Assembly: GCA_029624675.1 (NCBI GenBank)
Contig: JARSSP010000041.1
Span: 186,001-250,000, forward strand
DNA length: 64,000 bases
Reading direction: 5' to 3'
DNA from: Candidatus Contendibacter sp.
Lineage (GTDB): Bacteria; Pseudomonadota; Gammaproteobacteria; Competibacterales; Competibacteraceae
The translations under genes and the position numbers were made by a program. Of this stretch, positions 42,997-54,476 are shown in pieces (position 1 is the stretch's first letter; each line of letters starts with the position of its first letter). The notes under the pieces are model-generated. The model made no database searches and had not been told where the DNA came from. It saw nothing but the letters and a program-made list of their open reading frames with translations.

Positions 42997-43947
42997 ATGC
43001 GGCTGGCCGGCTTCTACGTGTTCGCGGCCGTCGTCGCGCTGCTTCCGGTGCTGTTTCCGACCAATTATTTCGTCACCGTGGTGGGCGCATCCGCCGGCCT
43101 GCACGTCATTCTGGCAGTCGGCCTCAACCTGCTGATGGGCTACGCCGGCCAGATTTCCCTGGGTCACGCCGCGTTCTTCGGCATGGGCGCCTATGCCTCC
43201 GCCATCTTGACGACCCGTTTTGGCTGGTACTCGCTGCTGGCGCTCGCCACCGGCCTGCTGGTCGCGGGTACGGTCGCCTGGCTGCTGGCTCGCCCTATTT
43301 TGCGGTTGCGCGGCCATTATCTGGCGATGGCGACCCTGGGTTTCGGCATCATCGTTCACGTCGTCATGGTGCAGGCGACGCGATGGACCGGTGGGCCGGA
43401 CGGCTTGGCGGGGGTTCCGCCGCTCAATCTTCTGGGTTGGGCTGTCGAGGGCGACTTGCCGTGGTACGGCGTGATCATGGCGGCCATGCTGCTGACCGTC
43501 TGGCTGTCGCTCAACCTCGTCGATTCCCAGGTCGGCCGCGCCTTGCGGGCGGTGCACGGCTCCGAGTTCGCCGCCCAAATGATGGGCATCGACATCGGTC
43601 GCGCCAAGACCCAGGTGTTCGTGGTCTCCGCCTTGTTCGCCACCTTCGCGGGCAGTCTGTTCGCCCACCAGCAAGCCTTCGTCAGCCCGGACTCCTTCAA
43701 TCTGATCGTTTCGGTGGAATTGGTGACCATGGTGGTGCTGGGCGGCATGGCCTCGACCTTCGGCGCGGCCTGTGGTGCCATCGCTCTGACCCTGCTGAAC
43801 GAATGGCTGGTGGTGTTTGAGGACTACGAGATGCTGATCCACGGCGCCCTGCTCATGGTCGTGATGATTTTTCTGCCGCAGGGGTTGTTCGTGGGTTTGA
43901 GCCAGGGTGCGCGGCGGTTGTGGGCCATGGTTCCCCGAAAACCCTGA
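42997..43947 (+). CDS. livM: Branched-chain amino acid ABC transporter permease LivM
   Basis: Second membrane subunit (316 residues). LMGYAGQISLGHAAFFGMGA and GGMASTFGAACGAIALTLLN are the conserved LivM motifs, the latter close to the ATPase-contacting loop. It ends at 43947. The ATPase genes livG and livF, normally directly downstream, are displaced to 53.7 kb by an accessory block. Confidence 0.95.
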   Translation: MRLAGFYVFAAVVALLPVLFPTNYFVTVVGASAGLHVILAVGLNLLMGYAGQISLGHAAFFGMGAYASAILTTRFGWYSLLALATGLLVAGTVAWLLARPILRLRGHYLAMATLGFGIIVHVVMVQATRWTGGPDGLAGVPPLNLLGWAVEGDLPWYGVIMAAMLLTVWLSLNLVDSQVGRALRAVHGSEFAAQMMGIDIGRAKTQVFVVSALFATFAGSLFAHQQAFVSPDSFNLIVSVELVTMVVLGGMASTFGAACGAIALTLLNEWLVVFEDYEMLIHGALLMVVMIFLPQGLFVGLSQGARRLWAMVPRKP

Positions 43948-43950
43948 GAA

Positions 43951-44076
43951 GCTGTCTAAAAACTAACTTGTTGATTGTGGGAGCGGCCTTGGCCGCGATG
44001 GCTGACCCTCCTATCGCGGCCAAGGCCGCTCCCACACAGAAGTCATTGATTTAATAATATTCAGTTTTTAGACAGC
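43951..44076. mobile_element. Nested inverted-repeat element (MITE/REP-like), 126 bp
   Basis: Perfect 14-base terminal inverted repeats GCTGTCTAAAAACT (43951-43964) and AGTTTTTAGACAGC (44063-44076) enclose a second, perfect 24-base inverted repeat (43976-43999 with 44013-44036) beginning TGTGGGAGCGGCCTTGGCCG. The inner part resembles the widespread GTGGGAGCGG REP family. No coding capacity. It sits 3 bases after livM, exactly at the junction of the split liv operon. Confidence 0.75.
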
Positions 44077-44089
44077 CTCTGAGCTTGCC

Positions 44090-45622
44090 TTAACCGCGTG
44101 CCCACTCGAAGCCGACAAGGTTGCGTTGCTCGCGGCTGAACTCCATCCCGATCAACGTCACGGGCAGTCCGGCGAACTTCTCCGCGTAGCCGCGCGCCCG
44201 TAGTTGTTCCAGCGCCCCGCCGGCTTCACTGGATTCCACCACCTTGAATTCCAATAGATACACCCGCTCGGCGAAGCGGATCGACAGGTCGATGCGGCCA
44301 CGGTTGGTCGCATCCTCTGGCGTGACCGCCAGACCCAGCGCGGCGAAGTAGCAGTACACCACCGAGGCCCAGTAGCCTTCGTAATCGGCGATGGCGTTGC
44401 GCCGATGCCAGTCGTGAGGGATGGAGGCGAAAAAGGCATGGAATGCCCGGTACAGCCCATCCGGCTCGTCAGCCTCCAGGGCGGCGTAAATCCGGTCCTC
44501 GGTGCGCAGCCGATCCTGCATGTTGGGGACGTAAGCATTCAGGATCGCCGCCGGCAGGCTGGCGCGTACTTCAAAGTTGGGGTAACGCAGCCGGTAGCGG
44601 TAGAGACCACTGCGCTGGTAGCGCTCCCGGAGGGTCAGATAACCGGTCTGAAACAACAACGCCTCGGGTTCGATACGATCCACGTCGAAGGTACCGAGCA
44701 GTTCCTCGCCCACCTCCAGGTTTTCCAGGTCGGGAATGTTATAGCAGCGGGTTTGCAGCAGCTTGATCAGGAAGGTGGGGGTACCGGTCTCAAACCACCA
44801 GGGACGAAGCTCGCGGCTATCCAGGTACAGCAGTACGTCGAAAGGGTTATAGACTGGCTCGCCGAGAAAGTTGTAGCCGTTGTACCACTGCTTCACCTCG
44901 GCCAAGTCCACGCCGGCTAGATGATCGGCGAAGGCGCTTTCCAACTCGCCTTGGGTGTAACCACACAGCGTGGCGAAACGTCCGTCCAGGGTAATATCTT
45001 TGAGATTATTCAGCCCTGAGAACAGCGACACCTTGGAAAATTTGCTGACGCCGGTCAGCAAGACGAAGCGCAGGTGGGCGTCCTGGCTTTTCAGCACCGA
45101 GTACAGATTGCGCAAGCCTTCGCGCAGCGCCAGCGCCACCTCCGGTCGGTCCAGATGATCCAGAATCGGCTTGTCGTATTCATCCACCAGCACCACCGCC
45201 CGTTCGCCGGTGCGGGCGTGCAGGGCATGGATGAGCTCGTGCAAGCGCAGGTGGATGGGTTCCTGGGTCAGGGTCACGCTATAAGCCTGGGCGCATTCGG
45301 CCAGTTGCAGGGCCACGGTGGCGTCGAGCAGGCCGGTCGTGCTCAGGATGCCCTCGCCGAAGTCCAGACGCAGCACGGGGTGGCGCCGCTCCCAATCCCA
45401 GTGGGTTTCCAGGTACAGCCCGGTGAACAGATCCCGGTGTCCGGCAAAAGCATCCGCCAGGGTGGTGACCAGCAGACTCTTGCCGAAACGACGCGGGCGG
45501 GCGAGAAAATAGAACTGCCCTTCCCGCGCCAACCGCTCGATCAGCGGCGTCTTATCGGCGTAGCAATAACCGCCTTCCCGAAGCTTGCGGAAGGTCTGAA
45601 TGCCAATTGGCAGTTTGGTCAT
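44090..45622 (-). CDS. AAA-ATPase-like/PD-(D/E)XK nuclease-superfamily protein
   Basis: 510-residue protein. It begins LPIGIQTFRKLREGGYCYAD followed by KTPLIERL and FLARPRRFGKSLLVTTLADA, the Walker-A-like signature of the AAA-ATPase_like family usually fused to a DUF1703-type nuclease domain. VVLVDEYDKPILDHL is the Walker B region. The C-terminal part has GRIDLSIRFAERVYLLEFKV, fitting the Asp...Glu-x-Lys core of PD-(D/E)XK enzymes. This family is abundant and often multicopy; its function is unknown. It is read toward livM and separated from it by the inverted-repeat element. Confidence 0.85.
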   Translation of the reverse strand: MTKLPIGIQTFRKLREGGYCYADKTPLIERLAREGQFYFLARPRRFGKSLLVTTLADAFAGHRDLFTGLYLETHWDWERRHPVLRLDFGEGILSTTGLLDATVALQLAECAQAYSVTLTQEPIHLRLHELIHALHARTGERAVVLVDEYDKPILDHLDRPEVALALREGLRNLYSVLKSQDAHLRFVLLTGVSKFSKVSLFSGLNNLKDITLDGRFATLCGYTQGELESAFADHLAGVDLAEVKQWYNGYNFLGEPVYNPFDVLLYLDSRELRPWWFETGTPTFLIKLLQTRCYNIPDLENLEVGEELLGTFDVDRIEPEALLFQTGYLTLRERYQRSGLYRYRLRYPNFEVRASLPAAILNAYVPNMQDRLRTEDRIYAALEADEPDGLYRAFHAFFASIPHDWHRRNAIADYEGYWASVVYCYFAALGLAVTPEDATNRGRIDLSIRFAERVYLLEFKVVESSEAGGALEQLRARGYAEKFAGLPVTLIGMEFSREQRNLVGFEWARG

Positions 45623-45862
45623 GATATTTCTGCCTCAAAAACGAAAAATCCGTATTAAAATACAGTTTCTATTGAGCCTGTTCGGCTTCCTAGCGGAAGC
45701 CGCCAATCCTCCGGGCAGTGATGGAGGCACCGCCCTCACGGTGGGCTCTGTGCACGCCGTAGCGCTCAAGGGCGGTGTACGCTGTTTAGCTTTTGCGCGG
45801 CATGCGGTGCCAAAGCCCAGCCTCTTTTTGCGTTCAAGCCAAATTTGCCGAGAAGGTTTCAT

Positions 45863-47635
45863 ATGTCAAGTCTTCTGTCTTCCAAACTATACATCCGGTT
45901 GGTATTAGGTGCTTTATTGGCTCTATTATCGGATATTTCCCAAGCAATAGGTAATCTCACCCCATATAAGATGTCCGGTTGGTCGGACAAAGTTGTGATC
46001 AGTAACACATCAGGAGGGACGACGGATAGTAGTCCTTTGTATACAAACGATGTCCTTTCCATATCTTGGGCTGTGATCAATAACGGTGATACTAAAGTCG
46101 TTGGTCCATTTTTTATAGATTTATATGTTGATGGAGTTAAAATAAAAAGTTCTTCCATTGATTCTTTAGATCCTGGATGGTATTTCTGGTGGAAAGGCCA
46201 TGCTGAAATTGTTTTACCAGAACCTGGTGAACATACATTACGTCTTGTCGCAGATAGTACAAAATTGGTATCTGAAGCTAATGAAAACGACAATATTTAT
46301 GATAAAAAAATCAATGTATTGACTCGAAACTCCACAACTAGTCGCTTGATTTGGAATGGTAACGGTCATTCCTACCAGCGGATTGAAATTCCGTTAAATT
46401 GGCCGGAAGCAAAAAGCTACTGCGAATCACAAGGTGGCTACCTAGTGACCATTACATCAAAGGAAGAAAATGAATTCATTTTTTCACGGTTAGGTAGCTC
46501 CTCCTATGCGCTGTGGATTGGTGGAACGGACGCTGGCCAAGAAGGGACTTGGGCTTGGGTTAATAATGAACCTTGGAGTTATTCAAACTGGGATACGGGA
46601 GAACCTAATAATGCAGAGGGTAATGAAGATTCTTTACAAATGGTCGGAACTGGAAAATGGAATGATAATAATTCAGATGGAAAAATCTGGTTTTCATGTG
46701 AATGGGATTCAACCTCGACACCGCCGTCCAGCTCTCGCGCGACCAACCTCAGCATCAGTCAAATGAGTCCCGGCCGCTACCGGTTGCTCGGCACCCTGAT
46801 GGACGCCAATGGTCAGCCCGCGTGCGGTCTCGCGCTGGCCAGTGGCCGGTGCGTGTTCAGTTGTGGGCCGGGGTCGCTGCGCTGCGAGGGCGGCGTGGAC
46901 AGTCTGCCCCTCGGCCAATTCGATCTGACCGACCTGCCGACCGAGGCGGATGGTACCCTCACCCTGCAAACCTTCGTCTTTGGCAGCCCGCCCGGTCGCC
47001 AGGTGGTTCGTTCGGACGGCACGGCTCAACTGGTCGGCGGCGCCACCAGCCGCGCCAGTTCCCAAGCGCTCAACCCCCGCGTCAGCGAAGTCAGTCCCGG
47101 CCGCTACCGACTGACCGGCACCCTGGTGGACGCCAACGGTCAGCCGGCGTGTGGCCTGGCCTTGGCCAGCGGTCGCTGCGTGTTCAGTTGCGGGCCGGGG
47201 TCGTTGCGCTGCGAGGGCGGCGCCAGCACTCTGCCCCTGGGCCAATTCGAGCTGACCGACCTGCCGACCGAGGCGGATGGCACCCTCACCCTGCAAACCT
47301 TCGTGTTCGGCAGCCTGCCCGGCCGCCAAAGCCAGGCGGCCACCGGCGGCGGCGGGGGGTGTAGCTACACCATCGATCCCACCAGCCGAGCGTTCGAGTA
47401 CCTCGGTGGATCGGGCGCGGTGACCGTGTCCGCCCCGGCCGGTTGCGCCTGGACCGCTCAAAACCATGACGACTGGATCGCCATCACCTCGGGAACGAGC
47501 GGGACCGGCCCCGGCACGACGACCTACACGGTATCGACCAATGCCTCCAGCGCCAAGCGCACCGGGACCTTGACCATTGCCGGCAAAACCCACACCGTGT
47601 CCCAAAATCCCAAGGGTCCTGACCCCATTGACTGA
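45863..47635 (+). CDS. Secreted CARDB / C-type lectin / BACON-domain protein (copy A)
   Basis: Predicted exported protein of 590 residues starting at ATG 45863 with AGAAGGT upstream. Order: signal peptide (RLVLGALLALLSDISQA); a CARDB-like beta domain (about 25-150); a C-type lectin domain (WPEAKSYCESQGGYLVTITS, WIGGTDAGQEGTWAWV, DTGEPNNAEG, KWNDNN) with the EPN calcium/mannose-type motif; two ~110-residue repeats each containing GRYRL...GTL.DANGQPACGLALASG; and a C-terminal BACON-like domain (CAWTAQNHDDWIAITSG). The first half is AT-rich and the second half GC-rich. From 46811 to 47575 the DNA appears identical to copy B, although the lectin parts differ. Probably binds glycans outside the cell. 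Confidence 0.85.
   Translation: MSSLLSSKLYIRLVLGALLALLSDISQAIGNLTPYKMSGWSDKVVISNTSGGTTDSSPLYTNDVLSISWAVINNGDTKVVGPFFIDLYVDGVKIKSSSIDSLDPGWYFWWKGHAEIVLPEPGEHTLRLVADSTKLVSEANENDNIYDKKINVLTRNSTTSRLIWNGNGHSYQRIEIPLNWPEAKSYCESQGGYLVTITSKEENEFIFSRLGSSSYALWIGGTDAGQEGTWAWVNNEPWSYSNWDTGEPNNAEGNEDSLQMVGTGKWNDNNSDGKIWFSCEWDSTSTPPSSSRATNLSISQMSPGRYRLLGTLMDANGQPACGLALASGRCVFSCGPGSLRCEGGVDSLPLGQFDLTDLPTEADGTLTLQTFVFGSPPGRQVVRSDGTAQLVGGATSRASSQALNPRVSEVSPGRYRLTGTLVDANGQPACGLALASGRCVFSCGPGSLRCEGGASTLPLGQFELTDLPTEADGTLTLQTFVFGSLPGRQSQAATGGGGGCSYTIDPTSRAFEYLGGSGAVTVSAPAGCAWTAQNHDDWIAITSGTSGTGPGTTTYTVSTNASSAKRTGTLTIAGKTHTVSQNPKGPDPID
46811..47575 (+). repeat. Long direct repeat, copy A (partner at 49863-50627)
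   Basis: About 765 bases covering the two internal repeats and most of the BACON domain appear identical to the partner 3052 bases downstream: translations agree in the coding frame and in overlapping shadow frames. Identity stops abruptly at TTGACCATTGCC here versus TTGACCGTCGCC in the partner. Internally it holds two ~300-base tandem units. Confidence 0.85.
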
Positions 47636-47655
47636 CCGTTCTGAAGGGCTACGCG

Positions 47656-48321
47656 ATGTCCACTGTACAACCCACGTTCGACGATATTTGGCGATTGTTC
47701 CAGGAAACCCGGTTGCAGTTCCAGGAAACCCGGTTGCAATTTCAGGAAACCCGGTTGCAATTTCAGGAAACCGAACGGTTCCTCAAAGAGCAGGCTCAGG
47801 AAACCGACCGTCGATTTCAGGAGACCGACCGCCGGTTTCAGGAGACCGACCGCCGATCTCAGGAGACTGACCGCAAAATCAAGGAAGTGACCATGAATAT
47901 CGGGCGACTGGGTAACAAGCTGGGGGATTTTGTGGAGGAGATGGTGCGTCCGGCGGCGGTGCGGCTTTTTCAGGAGCGAGGCATTGCCGTTCACGAGGTC
48001 CATCGCCAAGTCGTCGCTAACCGGCGGGGAGCCGCCATTGAAGTGGATTTGCTGGTGGTGAACGACGAGGATGTCGTGGCCATTGAATGCAAAAGCACCT
48101 TGAGCGTGGATGACGTGAACGAGCACCTCGCGCGACTGGGCAAAGTGAAGGAACTGCTCCCCAGTTATGCGAACAAGCGGGTTCTGGGCGCGGTTAGCGG
48201 TATGGTGATCCCCGATCATGTCGCCGCGTATGCCTACCGACAAGGTTTGTTTGTCCTGGCACAGTCCGGCGACAGCGTGGTGATTCTCAACGACGTCCAC
48301 TTTCAACCCAAGGCGTGGTGA
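47656..48321 (+). CDS. Coiled-coil PD-(D/E)XK-like protein (DUF3782-like)
   Basis: 221-residue protein. After STVQPTFDDIWRLFQETRLQ comes a heptad-repeat coiled coil to about residue 75. The rest reads IGRLGNKLGDFVEEMVRPAA, IEVDLLVVNDEDVVAIECKS, with Asp and Glu-x-Lys of a nuclease-like core, then a helical end. Similar proteins are common and multicopy in bacteria with large genomes; function is unknown. It begins 20 bases after lectin copy A. A truncated second copy lies at 49159. Confidence 0.75.
   Translation: MSTVQPTFDDIWRLFQETRLQFQETRLQFQETRLQFQETERFLKEQAQETDRRFQETDRRFQETDRRSQETDRKIKEVTMNIGRLGNKLGDFVEEMVRPAAVRLFQERGIAVHEVHRQVVANRRGAAIEVDLLVVNDEDVVAIECKSTLSVDDVNEHLARLGKVKELLPSYANKRVLGAVSGMVIPDHVAAYAYRQGLFVLAQSGDSVVILNDVHFQPKAW
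47698..47880 (+). repeat. In-frame 21-bp tandem repeats encoding heptads
   Basis: Units of the type TTTCAGGAAACCCGGTTGCA (7 codons, FQETRLQ) occur about three times in near-perfect copies, then after a short break TTTCAGGAGACCGACCGCCG (FQETDRR) about three times. Because each unit is 21 bases, slippage would lengthen or shorten the coiled coil without breaking the frame. Confidence 0.85.
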
Positions 48322-48484
48322 CGCACTCCTACGTGAGCTGTGGAATTTTCCTTACGACGGTTGCATGATAAGGCACTGAGGCACTGAGGGGTGGTTCAGC
48401 GGGCGATGGGCTCGCGTGGACTCAATCGATGATTCTCTCCCTTCACGAACGCAGGGTTTCGCGCGCAATTTGGATGATTGAAAC

Positions 48485-49090
48485 ATGCCATACAGCAGCT
48501 TTACTCTGAAAAGAGCCAAAAGTGAACTTAATATTCATATTGTCGAGACTCAGGGTTTCTTTGAAAAGATTGCAGCGGTTGAAATCAGTGAAATACTGAC
48601 AATCCTCTTAAAGGAGCAGGTTTCGTTGGCCGTTTCGATGAATACGGAAAAGGCGAGATCAGAGTTGATTATCTCCAATATTATGGTCGAAATCCGCAGA
48701 AGATTTAACAGCCAGGTCAGTATATTTTCAGGTATTGAATTCAATGTAGATAAAGACAGGGACTTAAATGGTTTTTGCGATTTTATGATCAGCAAATCCT
48801 CAGAGCAGTTGATATTAAACGCACCGGTAGTAGCGTTGGTGGAAGCGAAGAATGAGAATATTATCGGAGGTTTGGGTCAATGTATCGCGGAAATGGTGGC
48901 GGCGAATCTATTCAACATACAGGAAAAGAATCCCCTGGAAAAGATTTATGGTGTAGTCACTTCAGGCACTGCTTGGCAATTTCTGCGGCTGGCCGGAAAT
49001 ACGGTGGAAATTGACTTAAAGGAATACTTTATTGATCAGCCCGGCAAAATTGTCGGCATCCTTTCCGCCATGGTGGAACAGAGCGCTTGA
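48485..49090 (+). CDS. Uncharacterised protein with PD-(D/E)XK-like core
   Basis: 201-residue protein of lower GC than its surroundings. LNGFCDFMISKSSEQLILNA followed by PVVALVEAKNENIIGGLGQC gives the Asp...Glu-x-Lys spacing of PD-(D/E)XK nucleases. No signal peptide or membrane segment. ATG 48485 has no strong ribosome site. The 163 bases before it hold only a short direct repeat (AGGCACTG twice). Similar proteins of unknown function occur in cyanobacteria and other large-genome bacteria, from memory. Composition points to horizontal acquisition. Confidence 0.6.
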   Translation: MPYSSFTLKRAKSELNIHIVETQGFFEKIAAVEISEILTILLKEQVSLAVSMNTEKARSELIISNIMVEIRRRFNSQVSIFSGIEFNVDKDRDLNGFCDFMISKSSEQLILNAPVVALVEAKNENIIGGLGQCIAEMVAANLFNIQEKNPLEKIYGVVTSGTAWQFLRLAGNTVEIDLKEYFIDQPGKIVGILSAMVEQSA

Positions 49091-49158
49091 AGGATAGCCA
49101 ATAAATATTCAAAAGCCATCCGGCTGAAAACCCACTCTCAACGACTAGGCGCACAACC

Positions 49159-49287
49159 ATGGCCACAACACAACCCACGCTTGACGATGTTTGGCAATTA
49201 TTCCGGGAAACTGGTCAGCGATTCCGGGAGACCGAGATTTCAGCCCAGGGTGTGGTAGGCCGTGCTACGCTAGCTACAAGCCTTTAG
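49159..49287 (+). pseudogene. Truncated second copy of the DUF3782-like gene
   Basis: Encodes only 42 residues starting MATTQPTLDDVWQLFRET, clearly parallel to the start of the gene at 47656, then GQRFRETEISAQG and an unrelated tail before a TAG. The nuclease-like part is gone. It lies just upstream of lectin copy B and so is probably a relic of the duplication that made the two lectin genes. Confidence 0.75.
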
Positions 49288-49325
49288 TTAAAGTGAAAAT
49301 AACTTGTTCCTAATCGGGTATACCC

Positions 49326-50687
49326 ATGCTCTGTTCTCGCGTGTGTGTTTCGCTCGTCCCCTTTCTGTTCGGGACAACCCTATTGCTTTTACCTGCCGAA
49401 GCATCTGAGCGATTGGTTTGGCAGAACAATGGTCATTCTTATCAAAGAGTTGAGGGCATGCTGACTTGGCCGGAAGCCAAAGCTTACTGTGAATCGCAAG
49501 GTGGTCACCTAGCGACCATTACATCTAAGGAAGAAAACGAATTTATCTTCTCACAGTTTGGGGGGACTGATATTCAATTATGGCTTGGTGGAACCGACGA
49601 AGGCCATGAAGGGGTATGGACTTGGGTAACTGGAGAGCCTTGGAGCTATTCAAATTGGAATTCAGGAGAGCCAAATAATTATCAAGGCTTTAATGAAACC
49701 TATTTGGATATGGAACCCGATGGAACGTGGAATGATAACTCAGATCATCAATTCTGGTTTGTATGCGAAATAGATAATTCCAGCTCTCGCGCGACCAATA
49801 TCACCATCAGCACTGTGAGTTCCGGCCGCTACCGGCTACTCGGCACGCTGGTGGATGCCAACGGTCAGCCCGCGTGCGGTCTCGCGCTGGCCAGTGGCCG
49901 GTGCGTGTTCAGTTGTGGGCCGGGGTCGCTGCGCTGCGAGGGCGGCGTGGACAGTCTGCCCCTCGGCCAATTCGATCTGACCGACCTGCCGACCGAGGCG
50001 GATGGTACCCTCACCCTGCAAACCTTCGTCTTTGGCAGCCCGCCCGGTCGCCAGGTGGTTCGTTCGGACGGCACGGCTCAACTGGTCGGCGGCGCCACCA
50101 GCCGCGCCAGTTCCCAAGCGCTCAACCCCCGCGTCAGCGAAGTCAGTCCCGGCCGCTACCGACTGACCGGCACCCTGGTGGACGCCAACGGTCAGCCGGC
50201 GTGTGGCCTGGCCTTGGCCAGCGGTCGCTGCGTGTTCAGTTGCGGGCCGGGGTCGTTGCGCTGCGAGGGCGGCGCCAGCACTCTGCCCCTGGGCCAATTC
50301 GAGCTGACCGACCTGCCGACCGAGGCGGATGGCACCCTCACCCTGCAAACCTTCGTGTTCGGCAGCCTGCCCGGCCGCCAAAGCCAGGCGGCCACCGGCG
50401 GCGGCGGGGGGTGTAGCTACACCATCGATCCCACCAGCCGAGCGTTCGAGTACCTCGGTGGATCGGGCGCGGTGACCGTGTCCGCCCCGGCCGGTTGCGC
50501 CTGGACCGCTCAAAACCATGACGACTGGATCGCCATCACCTCGGGAACGAGCGGGACCGGCCCCGGCACGACGACCTACACGGTATCGACCAATGCCTCC
50601 AGCGCCAAGCGCACCGGGACCTTGACCGTCGCCGGGCAAACCCACACCGTGTCCCAAAATCCCAAGGGTCCTGACCCCATTGACTGA
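49326..50687 (+). CDS. Secreted C-type lectin / BACON-domain protein (copy B)
   Basis: 453-residue exported protein. Signal peptide SLVPFLFGTTLLLLPAEA, then directly a C-type lectin domain (TWPEAKAYCESQGGHLATIT, LWLGGTDEGHEGVWTWV, SGEPNNYQGF, GTWNDNS) with EPN and WND calcium-site motifs. It lacks the CARDB domain of copy A. The two DANGQPACGLALASG repeats and BACON domain follow; their DNA from 49863 on appears identical to copy A. The lectin halves are related but clearly diverged. It is followed by a membrane kinase gene on the same strand. Confidence 0.85.
   Translation: MLCSRVCVSLVPFLFGTTLLLLPAEASERLVWQNNGHSYQRVEGMLTWPEAKAYCESQGGHLATITSKEENEFIFSQFGGTDIQLWLGGTDEGHEGVWTWVTGEPWSYSNWNSGEPNNYQGFNETYLDMEPDGTWNDNSDHQFWFVCEIDNSSSRATNITISTVSSGRYRLLGTLVDANGQPACGLALASGRCVFSCGPGSLRCEGGVDSLPLGQFDLTDLPTEADGTLTLQTFVFGSPPGRQVVRSDGTAQLVGGATSRASSQALNPRVSEVSPGRYRLTGTLVDANGQPACGLALASGRCVFSCGPGSLRCEGGASTLPLGQFELTDLPTEADGTLTLQTFVFGSLPGRQSQAATGGGGGCSYTIDPTSRAFEYLGGSGAVTVSAPAGCAWTAQNHDDWIAITSGTSGTGPGTTTYTVSTNASSAKRTGTLTVAGQTHTVSQNPKGPDPID
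49863..50627 (+). repeat. Long direct repeat, copy B (partner at 46811-47575)
   Basis: See the partner. The 5' edge of identity falls at GGTCAGCCCGCG within the first internal repeat; upstream of it the two genes differ at many positions, downstream none was seen for about 765 bases. Confidence 0.85.
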
Positions 50688-50741
50688 CCGCTTGGTGTTC
50701 ATCAACCAGTCCCTTCTCTTCCCCGCTCGGGCGCGGGAGGG

Positions 50742-52841
50742 ATGGGGACGAGGAGCCGGACCTTGAGTTTCAAAGGCTCACACTCCAACCCCTTCCCTAA
50801 AGGGGGCCAAGGAAACGAAAACCCGCGCCAGGGAACGTCGGTGCAAATCGCGGGCTATCAAATAGACTGCCAGATCGGACGTGGCGGAATGGCCACTGTT
50901 TATCGCGCCATGCAACAGTCCCTTGGCCGTCAGGTGGCGATAAAGATTCTGGCGCAGAGTCCCGAGGAAGACGATGAGTTCGCGCAACGCTTTAAAAAGG
51001 AAGGACGTATTCTCGCCCGGTTACTGCACCCCAACATCATTACGATTCATGACGTTGGGATTTCCGAAAATAATCAGCTCTTTCTGTCCATCGAATATCT
51101 CCCCGGCGGCACGCTTGGCGACCGAATCAAGCAGGGCTTATCCTTTGAATCCGCCATCCAGATCACGAGAGCCATCGCGCAGGCATTGGGGTATGCGCAT
51201 GAGAGAGGCATCATTCATCGGGATGTCAAGCCTTCCAATATCATGTTTCGGCGGGACGGCACTCCGGTATTGACCGACTTTGGAGTTGCGCGAGTCCTTG
51301 AGTCGAAGACTATTCATACTCTATCGGGATTAGCGGTCGGTAGCCCGGGCTACATGAGCCCGGAACAGGCCATGGGCGAAAACGCCACGATTCAATCCGA
51401 TCTATACAGCCTTGGCGTCGTGCTTTATGAAATGCTCACCGGGCGGCGGCTTTACGAAGCTAGCAATCTGATTGCCGTTACGTTAAAGCATCTGCATGAC
51501 CCAATCCCCGATCTTCCTAGGCAGTACGCTCATTTACAGCCAGTCTTGAATAAATTACTTGCAAAGAAAAATACGGATCGTTATAGGAATACCGATGAGT
51601 TCTTGCAAGCGCTTGATGAAGCGATGGGTAATGGCGTAAGGACCGAGCCTAGGGATATCGATATTAGCCATATAAGCATAATGGAGTTCACGACTGGAAA
51701 AATTCAGACACTTATCGGGAATAAACTACGATGGCCAGTTCTCACTCTGATAGCCGGTTTTATAGTTATAGCTATCGCGATAGCTTACCTTTTTGCATCA
51801 CAGCGCCCGATGGATCAGACCGAGTTTCCTGAATCCAGAAGGCAAGGCCAACAGGAAGTCGGAACATTACTGAAGCTGGCCGGGATGCAGCTAAAATCAG
51901 GGATATTAGGAAAAGAATTCGGTGAGGATAACGCGGAAGCCACTTATCGGCATATTCTGATTCTTGATCCAGGTAATGCTGATGCACTGGCTGGCTTGGA
52001 AAATATTGCGAAGGAATACGAGAAAGTAGCCAAACAGCGCCTTGATCAGGGAGCATTGCAGGAAAGCCTCGATCAGATAAAACGAGGCTTGGCGGTCGCC
52101 CCTGAAAATCAAGAGTTTTTGCGCCTGCGCCAGGAGATCGAGGATCGAATTGCTGAAGTAAACGCCCAGAAGGCTCGTGAAGAAGAACAACGCCAACTTC
52201 GAATCCAAGCCGAACAATTTCTTGCGCAGGCACAGACTTACTTTCAGGAGGGTTTGTTGGAGATCGGCCTGTATCACACTCAGCAAGGTCTATTGGCGAT
52301 GCCTGATCATCAAGGCTTGCTGGCACTGCGCGATCAGATACAGACCCGGATAGCCGAGCAACAGCGCCGGCAGGAAGAGACGCGACGGCAAGCGGAGGCA
52401 GTGGAGCGCCAAAAGGCCGAGCAAGCACGCCAACAGAAAGAAGCGATGCAACGACAGGCCGAGATTGCGGAACGTCAAAAGGCCGAGCAAGCACGGCGGA
52501 AGGAGGAAGAGACGCGGCGGCAGGCGGAAGCCAGCCAATATCTGGCGCGAGCGTCGGATGATCGGCGAAATGGCAAATATTCGGCCAGTTTGCAGCAAAT
52601 CGAGCGGGGGCTGGCGCTGGTTCCAAACCATGAGGGTCTGTTACGTCTGCGTGAACAGGTGCGTGCTGAACGATTAGCGGAACAACAACGACAGGATGCG
52701 CGACGCCAAGCCGCCAAGACGGCTCGACCTCAAACCAAACCAGCGGTGGATTCGCCTCAACAGGAAAGCGACACGACGCTCAAGAAACTTCAAGAGATTA
52801 AAAATGCCGTCGATGCGCTTGATAAATCATTGAGCAGATAG
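50742..52841 (+). CDS. Membrane Ser/Thr protein kinase with coiled-coil/TPR-like C-terminus
   Basis: Hanks-type kinase, 699 residues from ATG 50742, or 666 from GTG 50841, which starts at VQIAGYQIDCQIGRG and may be the true start since the first 33 residues look like intergenic sequence. Kinase motifs: GRGGMATVYRA, QVAIKIL (Lys), HRDVKPSNI (catalytic loop), LTDFGVARV (DFG), GSPGYMSPEQA. A single transmembrane segment (LIAGFIVIAIAIAYLFA) about residues 340-356 is followed by repeats of the form LDQGALQESLDQIKRGLAV and long Glu/Arg/Gln-rich coiled coils (RRQEETRRQAEAVERQKAEQ), probably exported. All catalytic residues are present. It is followed 34 bases later by a membrane-anchored partner candidate. 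Confidence 0.9.
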   Translation: MGTRSRTLSFKGSHSNPFPKGGQGNENPRQGTSVQIAGYQIDCQIGRGGMATVYRAMQQSLGRQVAIKILAQSPEEDDEFAQRFKKEGRILARLLHPNIITIHDVGISENNQLFLSIEYLPGGTLGDRIKQGLSFESAIQITRAIAQALGYAHERGIIHRDVKPSNIMFRRDGTPVLTDFGVARVLESKTIHTLSGLAVGSPGYMSPEQAMGENATIQSDLYSLGVVLYEMLTGRRLYEASNLIAVTLKHLHDPIPDLPRQYAHLQPVLNKLLAKKNTDRYRNTDEFLQALDEAMGNGVRTEPRDIDISHISIMEFTTGKIQTLIGNKLRWPVLTLIAGFIVIAIAIAYLFASQRPMDQTEFPESRRQGQQEVGTLLKLAGMQLKSGILGKEFGEDNAEATYRHILILDPGNADALAGLENIAKEYEKVAKQRLDQGALQESLDQIKRGLAVAPENQEFLRLRQEIEDRIAEVNAQKAREEEQRQLRIQAEQFLAQAQTYFQEGLLEIGLYHTQQGLLAMPDHQGLLALRDQIQTRIAEQQRRQEETRRQAEAVERQKAEQARQQKEAMQRQAEIAERQKAEQARRKEEETRRQAEASQYLARASDDRRNGKYSASLQQIERGLALVPNHEGLLRLREQVRAERLAEQQRQDARRQAAKTARPQTKPAVDSPQQESDTTLKKLQEIKNAVDALDKSLSR

Positions 52842-52875
52842 TTGTATTCCAACTTAAGCCTGGAAGGATAAAGTC

Positions 52876-53700
52876 GTGGATGATACTGCCAGTAAGAAAT
52901 ATTTTATTATCCTGGTCATTGGATTATTAGTGGCCCTGTCGTCCGTTACAGCTTTCATGAAGCCCTCATATGCTCAAACCAATTTGCAGGAGTTAAATAA
53001 TCGAGTGGCGGAATTGGAAAAAAGGTTGGCTGACGCCAAGGCCCGACAAGAAAGGGCCTATAGTGTCCAGATGAAACTGGAGGAGCAGGAACAAAAGCTT
53101 TCCAGTTTGCCTGATTCAGAAAAATACAGAGTACAAGCTATAGAGATCCGGGCGGATATCAAGAATATACGCACCAAGATCGAAGCGATTACCAAGGAAA
53201 AAAATGACTTGGAGGAAAATTTAAGACTTGCCAGGAATCTACAGGCTATCTTGATCGAAGGGCAAACAATAACAAAACCGAAAACTAAAACTCAAGCGCC
53301 TTCAGTTCAGGAAAGCAAATTCAACCAGACTGAGTCAAGGGCGCTCCCTGCCGCCAAACCGATCACTACCGATAGTGGTTCCAAGGCAGGCTGGCGCATG
53401 GAAAATATTAGGATCAGCAACTATTTCAATGATGATGAGCGTAATGAAATCATGAAAAATTTTAATACCGGAACCCTGCTTAGTCAGGATGACCTGTTAA
53501 ACAGTGCTTATCGGACTTATAGCCTTGCGGGAGTCAGTTTGCGACTCACAGTACACCCAAGAAGTGGAAACACCGCCGACTTGGAAATTGCCTTGGGCCA
53601 AAGGGACAATAGAAATCGAACCAGTGGTGGAACCAGCTTTTCACCAATGACCCTTGACCAATTTAAAAATGAGCTATTCAAAATTACAGTAGCCAAATGA
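52876..53700 (+). CDS. Membrane-anchored coiled-coil protein with POTRA-like C-terminus
   Basis: 274-residue protein starting at GTG 52876 with GGAAGG upstream. One N-terminal signal-anchor (FIILVIGLLVALSSVTAF) precedes a coiled coil (about 35-120), a Lys/Thr/Pro linker and a C-terminal domain (MENIRISNYFNDDERNEIMK, LLSQDDLLNSAYRTYSLAGV, SLRLTVHP) whose strand-helix pattern resembles POTRA domains of two-partner secretion transporters, without the beta-barrel. Composition is AT-rich. Its stop overlaps the livG start by 4 bases (ATGA). It probably works with the kinase upstream in an envelope function; this is inference. Confidence 0.6.
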   Translation: MDDTASKKYFIILVIGLLVALSSVTAFMKPSYAQTNLQELNNRVAELEKRLADAKARQERAYSVQMKLEEQEQKLSSLPDSEKYRVQAIEIRADIKNIRTKIEAITKEKNDLEENLRLARNLQAILIEGQTITKPKTKTQAPSVQESKFNQTESRALPAAKPITTDSGSKAGWRMENIRISNYFNDDERNEIMKNFNTGTLLSQDDLLNSAYRTYSLAGVSLRLTVHPRSGNTADLEIALGQRDNRNRTSGGTSFSPMTLDQFKNELFKITVAK

Positions 53701-54476
53701 CCCACGATTTGCTCACCGTCGAAGGACTGGAACAAAGCTTCGGCGGCGTCATGGCCCTGGCCGGGGTCAGCTTCCAGACGCCAGCCGGTTTGATCTACGC
53801 CGTCATCGGACCGAACGGCGCCGGCAAGACCACCCTGTTCAACAACCTCTGCGGATTCTACCAACCCTCCGCCGGTTCGATCCGGTTCGACGGTCACGAA
53901 CTGCGTGACCTGCCGCCGCACCGCATCGCCGCCCTGGGCATGGCGCGAACCTTCCAGAACCTGCAACTGTTCTTCAACATGACCGTGATCGAGAACGTCA
54001 TGGTCGGCTGCCACTTGCGCGCTCGGACCGGGTTGCTGGCCGCCGCGTTGCGCCTGCCCCAGGTACGGCGCGAGGAACGGCGCTTGCGGACATGGGCCAG
54101 CGAGGCGCTGGAATTGTGTGATCTGGCCGACCGGGCCGAACAACCGGCCGGCGCCCTGCCCTACGGCCTGATGAAACGGGTCGAAATCGCCCGCGCCCTG
54201 GCCGCTAAGCCCCGCCTCCTGCTGCTCGACGAACCCGCCGCCGGTCTCAACGACACCGAAACCCTGGCCTTGCGCGAACTGATCGCCCGCATCCGCGCCA
54301 GCGGCGTCACCGTGTTGCTGGTCGAGCATCACATGCCGCTGGTGATGAGCGTTTCCGACCGGCTGCTGGTGCTGGATTACGGCAGTGTGCTGGCCGAGGG
54401 TTCCCCGGCGGAAATCCAGGCTAATCCCCGGGTCATCGCCGCCTATCTGGGAGGAGCGGTGCAATATGCGGTCTGA
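53697..54476 (+). CDS. livG: Branched-chain amino acid ABC transporter ATPase LivG
   Basis: 259-residue ATPase. Walker A IGPNGAGKTTLFNN, a family-type signature region (PYGLMKRVEIARALA in place of LSGGQ), Walker B LLLLDEPAAGLN and the switch His (LLVEHHMPLVM). It completes the transporter of livH/livM, which lie 9.7 kb upstream. Its start is coupled to an unrelated accessory gene. livF starts inside its 3' end (11-base overlap). Confidence 0.95.
   Translation: MTHDLLTVEGLEQSFGGVMALAGVSFQTPAGLIYAVIGPNGAGKTTLFNNLCGFYQPSAGSIRFDGHELRDLPPHRIAALGMARTFQNLQLFFNMTVIENVMVGCHLRARTGLLAAALRLPQVRREERRLRTWASEALELCDLADRAEQPAGALPYGLMKRVEIARALAAKPRLLLLDEPAAGLNDTETLALRELIARIRASGVTVLLVEHHMPLVMSVSDRLLVLDYGSVLAEGSPAEIQANPRVIAAYLGGAVQYAV

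Follow-up and report, generated by a model that had tools for sequence, protein, structure and literature searches.

Evidence for recombination that homogenises the stalks, and probably exchanges the heads, of neighbouring lectin genes at a variable liv site of Competibacteraceae

INTRODUCTION

Two neighbouring genes for secreted C-type lectins of a Candidatus Contendibacter sp. (Competibacteraceae, Gammaproteobacteria), here named LEC1 and LEC2, share identical DNA in their 3′ halves and differ widely in their lectin-coding 5′ halves. How did two parts of the same gene come to diverge so differently? A sequence-only reading had proposed gene conversion or domain swapping, leaving a constant stalk under a variable binding head. 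We analysed a window of 64,000 nucleotides (assembly GCA_029624675.1, contig JARSSP010000041.1, positions 186,001 to 250,000; the positions below are those of the window) and compared it with other genomes of the family. The closest relative carrying the locus is designated G018 (contig as in Ca. Contendobacter SCELSE-2-Con, JARSSO010000043.1), and its three head-stalk genes, which lie in a row, are designated G018_A, G018_X and G018_Y.

RESULTS

Domains of LEC1 and LEC2

The two genes and their shared segments are as follows.

45863..47635, + strand: LEC1; signal peptide, CARDB, C-type lectin (EPN/WND), R1, R2, BACON
49326..50687, + strand: LEC2; signal peptide, C-type lectin (EPN/WND), R1, R2, BACON
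46811..47575, + strand: 765-bp tract, LEC1 copy, identical to 49863-50627
49863..50627, + strand: 765-bp tract, LEC2 copy, identical to 46811-47575
46727..46810, + strand: diverged 5′ stalk edge of LEC1; 15 mismatches in 84 nt relative to LEC2 49779-49862; nearest to G018_A

LEC1 starts at the ATG at 45863, and a TTG is in frame at 45845. Pfam Lectin_C matched both LEC1 and LEC2 (7e-21 and 1e-17; 75.4 and 64.8 bits against a cut-off of 22.6), BACON was found in both proteins, and the extra CARDB domain claimed for one of them was found in LEC1 only. Each head has the EPN and WND motifs, as had been read from the sequence, and this calcium-site sugar-binding motif (EPN...WND) is also carried by the lectin heads of G018_A, G019 and G037. 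A lectin head on another stalk (G015_Z; L038:6647-8551) has QPD/WDD instead of EPN/WND. In animal lectins, the QPD-type motif goes with galactose, not mannose, specificity. From its motif, the G015_Z head would be a natural specificity variant on that other stalk.

The constant part holds not one domain but two repeats of ∼105 amino acids, R1 and R2 (79% alike in DNA), followed by BACON. The Pfam scan of LEC1 and LEC2 assigned no domain to R1/R2. Folded with 20 homologues, R1 was confidently modelled as a seven-strand beta-sandwich (pLDDT 90.6). In comparison with the PDB, the R domain was generic Ig/FnIII-like; the best VIA-align match was an Ig domain of the SiiE adhesin (Z 7.2, rmsd 2.6 over 76 residues), and Foldseek gave no PDB match with E below 0.001. 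The modelled repeat would fit a stalk, and the model assigns it to a fold class, not to a named family. The full-length LEC2 model was unusable (pLDDT 42).

The GC content is 0.41 and 0.45 in the LEC heads and 0.69 in the stalk. The reported composition shift is therefore present, but it is not evidence of recency because the orthologous lectin heads are equally AT-rich, and this low GC is stable across several species. A recent foreign origin of the heads was rejected on the same ground. There was no further full copy of the stalk in the genome, and elsewhere only distant relatives of R were found. Close relatives of the whole proteins were absent from phage, plasmid and viral-contig collections, and phage or plasmid carriage was rejected as these gave only lectin or partial matches. 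Besides this genome, close relatives of the lectin heads (E <= 1e-12, 47-50% identical) were present in only 2 of the 369 sampled genomes of the class. A second tandem pair of secreted proteins ending in two distant R-like domains was observed at L041 (G000 C61, at ∼28.6 kb and ∼30.2 kb of the contig) and L042 (G018 C41); here too the copies adjoin each other, and more than one species has them.

The identical tract and its edges

With LEC1 and LEC2 aligned at an offset of 3052, the ∼765 bases that had appeared identical came to exactly 765 nt with zero differences in this one assembly. The tract spans the two Ig-like stalk repeats and most of BACON. On its 3′ side, 4 mismatches in 10 nt are followed by 53 identical bases that run past the stop codon, and then the similarity is abruptly lost. 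Upstream of the 84-nt edge, the ungapped LEC1/LEC2 identity is at background. The claim of a sharp boundary hence holds for the 3′ side, and not for the 5′ side, where similarity tapers over ∼84 nt. In this unconverted 5′ stalk edge, LEC1 resembles G018_A at 89%, and LEC2 resembles all other sequences at 70-76%. G018_A also has the C-terminal tail GPDPID. Because of the likeness of its edge to G018_A and of this shared tail, the donor of the converted stalk was probably a LEC1-type sequence.

Different histories of heads and stalks

The lectin domains of LEC1 and LEC2 do differ, as had been noted (68.9% nucleotide identity, dS 1.69, dN 0.26), and their dN/dS is ∼0.16. With a dS of ∼1.7 in the heads against no difference within the tract, heads and stalks have different histories; uniform divergence along the genes, which would have spoken against the sequence-only reading, is not seen. 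Between this genome and G018, dS was 0.23-0.55 for the kinase, the ATPase, the DUF3782 protein and ORF274, and 0.32 for orthologous stalks. The zero dS of the tract against these values indicates that the LEC1 and LEC2 stalks became identical since the species split, and that the heads are far older. As judged from these divergences, the cause of the contrast is recombination, not selection on the head.

In the tree of R1-R2, the stalks cluster by genome, not by head (LEC1 with LEC2, 99/99; G018_A with G018_Y, 97/97). The AU test rejected head-type clades (p 4e-5 to 0.0018), among them the grouping of LEC1 with its orthologue G018_A (p 1.6e-4) and that of all the lectin-headed stalks together (p 4e-5). 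The LEC1/LEC2 identity run covers 225 consecutive variable sites and was unmatched in 5000 permutations (p 0.0002). As gene conversion predicts, the identity tract is longer than expected from the spread of the differences, and within it the paralogs are closer than the orthologs. Identity-run tests among the three G018 paralogs gave p 0.0004-0.0036, and the RCC1 heads of G018_X and G018_Y have dS ∼3, with a dS of 0.34 in their stalks. By the same comparisons, G018 is an independent repeat, in a separate assembly, of the LEC1/LEC2 pattern. The dS contrast, the AU test (p <= 0.002) and the run test thus bear out gene conversion or domain swapping as proposed. At the level of sequence comparison, these data show that homologous recombination keeps neighbouring stalks alike within a genome and that old, diverged heads are replaced by one another. 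Rates and timing of the exchange are uncertain because the R-R stalk is carried by only a few genomes.

The livM-livG site

LEC1 and LEC2 lie inside the branched-chain amino-acid transporter (liv) operon of Competibacteraceae (Ca. Contendobacter group), with the following neighbours.

42997..43947, + strand: livM, left border of the variable site
44090-45622, − strand: AAA-ATPase_like/PDDEXK_9 gene, head-to-head with LEC1
47656..48321, + strand: DUF3782-like protein (weak, below the Pfam cut-off); accompanies head-stalk genes in relatives
48485..49090, + strand: ORF201, PD-(D/E)XK-like protein; a relative adjoins livM in G036
50742..52841, + strand: Ser/Thr kinase with one predicted membrane segment (residues 328-355) and an extracytoplasmic repeat region
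52876..53700, + strand: ORF274, signal-anchored coiled-coil protein; its stop overlaps the livG start
53697..54476, + strand: livG, right border of the variable site

The gap between livM and livG (43948-53696) is a variable insertion site in the Competibacteraceae. It is free of the cassette in G013, G014, G017, G029, G030, G033 and G038 (gaps of ∼25-760 bp), holds metallopeptidase-Big_7 genes in G005 and G006, and has unrelated inserts in G026 (a sulfatase-like gene) and G034 (VgrG-like and DUF2169/pentapeptide genes). At least the kinase, ORF274 and livG look co-transcribed, since the ORF274 stop overlaps the livG start. Full-length ORF274 orthologues are present in 8 of the 39 family genomes, and in all 8 a gene for a BACON-ended modular protein adjoins the kinase and ORF274. 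The G036 version is a short, rearranged RCC1-BACON gene that sits between these two. In synteny with G018, the LEC1 slot is between the ATPase gene and DUF3782, and the LEC2 slot is before the kinase.

The ATPase gene is 95% identical in G018, and in G015 a piece of a relative sits between two of the head-stalk genes. The DUF3782-like protein and ORF201 are two small PD-(D/E)XK-like proteins that travel with the head-stalk genes, and in G018 DUF3782 is duplicated and homogenised (97.7% over 651 bp). A mobile or recombination-related role of the two is possible. A defence-system reading was rejected; the PADLOC models matched by the kinase are generic ones for kinases, and nothing around the two small nuclease-like proteins points to defence. 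If the 765-bp direct repeats, which are 3,052 bp apart, recombined with each other, DUF3782, ORF201 and the LEC2 head would be lost. In the loop-out product, the LEC1-headed gene would be the only one left and would immediately precede the kinase, much as in the single-gene layouts of G025 and G037.

Heads and stalks in relatives

The expectation that further heads occur on the same stalk proved right, as in sister species that stalk bears other heads at the same locus, among them an unrelated RCC1 propeller. The heads observed there are CARDB-lectin (LEC1, G018_A), lectin without CARDB (LEC2, G037 and G015_Z; G019 is cut at the contig end), RCC1 beta-propeller (G018_X, G018_Y, G015_X, G025 and G036) and reprolysin-like metallopeptidase (G005 and G006), along with one G006 head of unknown type. 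The stalks are of R-R or Big_7 domains; both kinds carry lectin heads as well as RCC1 heads, and the metallopeptidase head is on the alternative, Big_7 stalk. A BACON end is usual, not universal. The family plan would thus be a head, two Ig-like stalk domains and usually a BACON end, often in tandem genes. A constant stalk with varied tips within one genome is seen in LEC1/LEC2 and in the three G018 paralogs.

Traces of head replacement

Remnants of former genes were found at two places.

45600..45812, + strand: decayed 5′ end of a fossil RCC1-headed gene, upstream of LEC1; decayed at the same place in G018
49159..49325, + strand: fossil DUF3782 gene (both ends, middle deleted) and LEC2 leader, with homology to leaders of RCC1-headed genes

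The LEC2 leader is homologous to the leaders of G018_X, G018_Y and G015_X up to the ATG, and the sequences part after the start codon. The slot before the kinase is occupied by the RCC1-headed G018_Y in G018 and by LEC2 here. The simplest reading of these sequences is that LEC2 once had an RCC1 head and that a lectin head took its place, the breakpoints lying at the start codon and within R1. In such a swap, the shared stalk DNA would serve as one arm and the 5′ leader as the other, and the partners would be siblings or incoming DNA.

The lectin domain of LEC1 is closer to G019 (89.6%, dS 0.48) than to G018_A (82.8%, dS 0.82), and the kinase is 67.8% identical to that of G019 (dS 2.6) versus 90.9% to that of G018. 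G019, whose contig is short, is the more distant relative. The lectin tree groups LEC1 with G019 (92/93), the AU test did not reject the alternative (p 0.105), and the run test gave p 0.0002. These values are suggestive of a transfer of the LEC1 head between species, to or from G019.

Alternative explanations

We consider it likely that LEC1 and LEC2 belong to a secreted modular family at a variable liv site, in which recombination homogenises neighbouring stalks and old heads, including non-homologous ones, are swapped. Another scenario is a recent tandem duplication of a single gene, after which the lectin heads diverged quickly by adaptation and the halves did not recombine; it would account for tandem genes in the same orientation with the same head fold. 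It is very improbable, and was rejected by the synonymous sites, as the heads are saturated there with a low dN/dS, the stalk is without any difference, and related stalks bear the non-homologous RCC1 head. A diversity-generating retroelement (DGR) acting on the heads is the least credible explanation of all. DGRs usually target C-type lectin folds (PMC10907252), and reverse-transcriptase genes are present in the genome; however, the nearest one on the same contig is ∼85 kb off, with none within ∼80 kb, and a DGR target was rejected for want of a linked reverse transcriptase. Moreover, the differences span the whole head, synonymous sites included, and the C-terminus, where a DGR has its variable region, is the constant part of these genes: in place of an adenine-directed C-terminal variable repeat, we found an identical C-terminal part and head differences that are spread out.

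The assembly is MAG-like (74 contigs) and the exact repeat is longer than short reads, so one copy might have been duplicated artificially, or two slightly different stalks collapsed to one consensus. This is improbable: both slots are syntenic in G018, LEC2 has its own edges and head, and the pattern recurs in the separately assembled G018, where the copies are not identical and the conversion runs are significant. Ordinary homogenisation only, that is, incidental conversion of adjacent repeats and a slow shuffling of domains in which exchange has no selected role, is possible, though we doubt it. Conversion of long adjacent repeats needs no special purpose, the gap also takes up unrelated inserts, and the DUF3782 copies of G018 were homogenised too. 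On the other hand, non-homologous heads at one slot or stalk, and a lectin behind the leader of an RCC1 gene, amount to real replacement, which does not by itself prove selection.

DISCUSSION

Our preferred reading, a modular family with homogenised stalks and swapped heads, has counterparts in several known systems. In the mosaic adhesive trimer (MAT) fibres of Bdellovibrio bacteriovorus, a family of surface proteins of one genome shares a fibre or stalk and bears various adhesive tips, a C-type lectin fold among them (PMC10769870). As in the MATs, the paralogs are alike in the stalk and different at the tip. Unlike the MATs, where the variable tip is C-terminal on a trimeric beta-prism, the LEC head is N-terminal on stalk repeats modelled as Ig-like, with a BACON end, and the LEC genes lie within the liv operon beside a kinase gene. 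By analogy, the LEC system is one that works most like the Bdellovibrio mosaic adhesins, yet it is not a MAT.

In Thiohalocapsa PB-PSB1, DGR-diversified C-type lectin sensors vary by reverse transcription in a C-terminal variable repeat (PMC10907252). The LEC locus resembles them in the C-type lectin domains with swapped partner domains, which there include kinases, in the intragenomic duplication and in belonging to an aggregate-forming gammaproteobacterium; it differs in that no reverse transcriptase is linked to it and whole N-terminal heads are exchanged. The BACON Ig-like domain of Bacteroidota is joined to varying carbohydrate-active or carbohydrate-binding domains and has been proposed to be a spacer (PMC11216935). 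BACON is likewise joined to varying domains here; unlike in Bacteroidota, where it is usually N-terminal and found in polysaccharide utilisation loci, it is C-terminal and in a gammaproteobacterium. Polymorphic toxin and Rhs-CDI loci combine an N-terminal constant part with a C-terminal variable toxin and an immunity gene. Common to these and the LEC locus are a homogenised constant part, displacement of the variable part at a shared segment, tandem cassettes and gene remnants, whereas the LEC family has binding domains or a peptidase as heads and no recognised immunity gene. Our literature search found no paper describing this head-stalk locus. Since mosaic adhesins as a kind are already known, the LEC locus is not categorically new.

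The LEC proteins are predicted to be exported by their N-terminal signal. From their EPN/WND motifs, the calcium-site lectin heads would bind glycans in flocs, be they those of neighbours, of prey or of the matrix, and the stalk with BACON would be a spacer that keeps the head at some distance. ORF274 and the transmembrane kinase encoded with the lectins would take part in one surface process with them, either regulated adhesion or signalling. We infer a role in glycan recognition or adhesion that may be linked to the kinase, the latter link because they share a locus. Aerobic granules have an abundant glycan matrix, and Ca. Contendobacter is active in them (PMC12016536); they are a plausible setting for such a role. 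It is conceivable, though unlikely, that livM-livG holds a dedicated recognition repertoire, in which heads of unrelated folds are exchanged on stalk DNA kept identical for this purpose and the kinase receives the signal that a head has bound. If so, floc- and granule-forming wastewater bacteria would have a constant-variable surface receptor system that works without reverse transcriptase.

Predators, phage fibres and polymorphic toxins provide known cases of surface proteins with constant stalks and swapped heads. The LEC locus has the same logic at one syntenic site of the Competibacteraceae, which are wastewater bacteria related to Ca. Contendobacter, next to a transmembrane kinase in an amino-acid transporter operon. 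With its traceable leaders, fossils and conversion edges it is a clean natural case of head replacement, and it defines the R repeat as a stalk domain lacking a Pfam model. For the biology of these bacteria, the locus offers a small, testable set of candidates for adhesion or for recognition of partners or prey in granular sludge.
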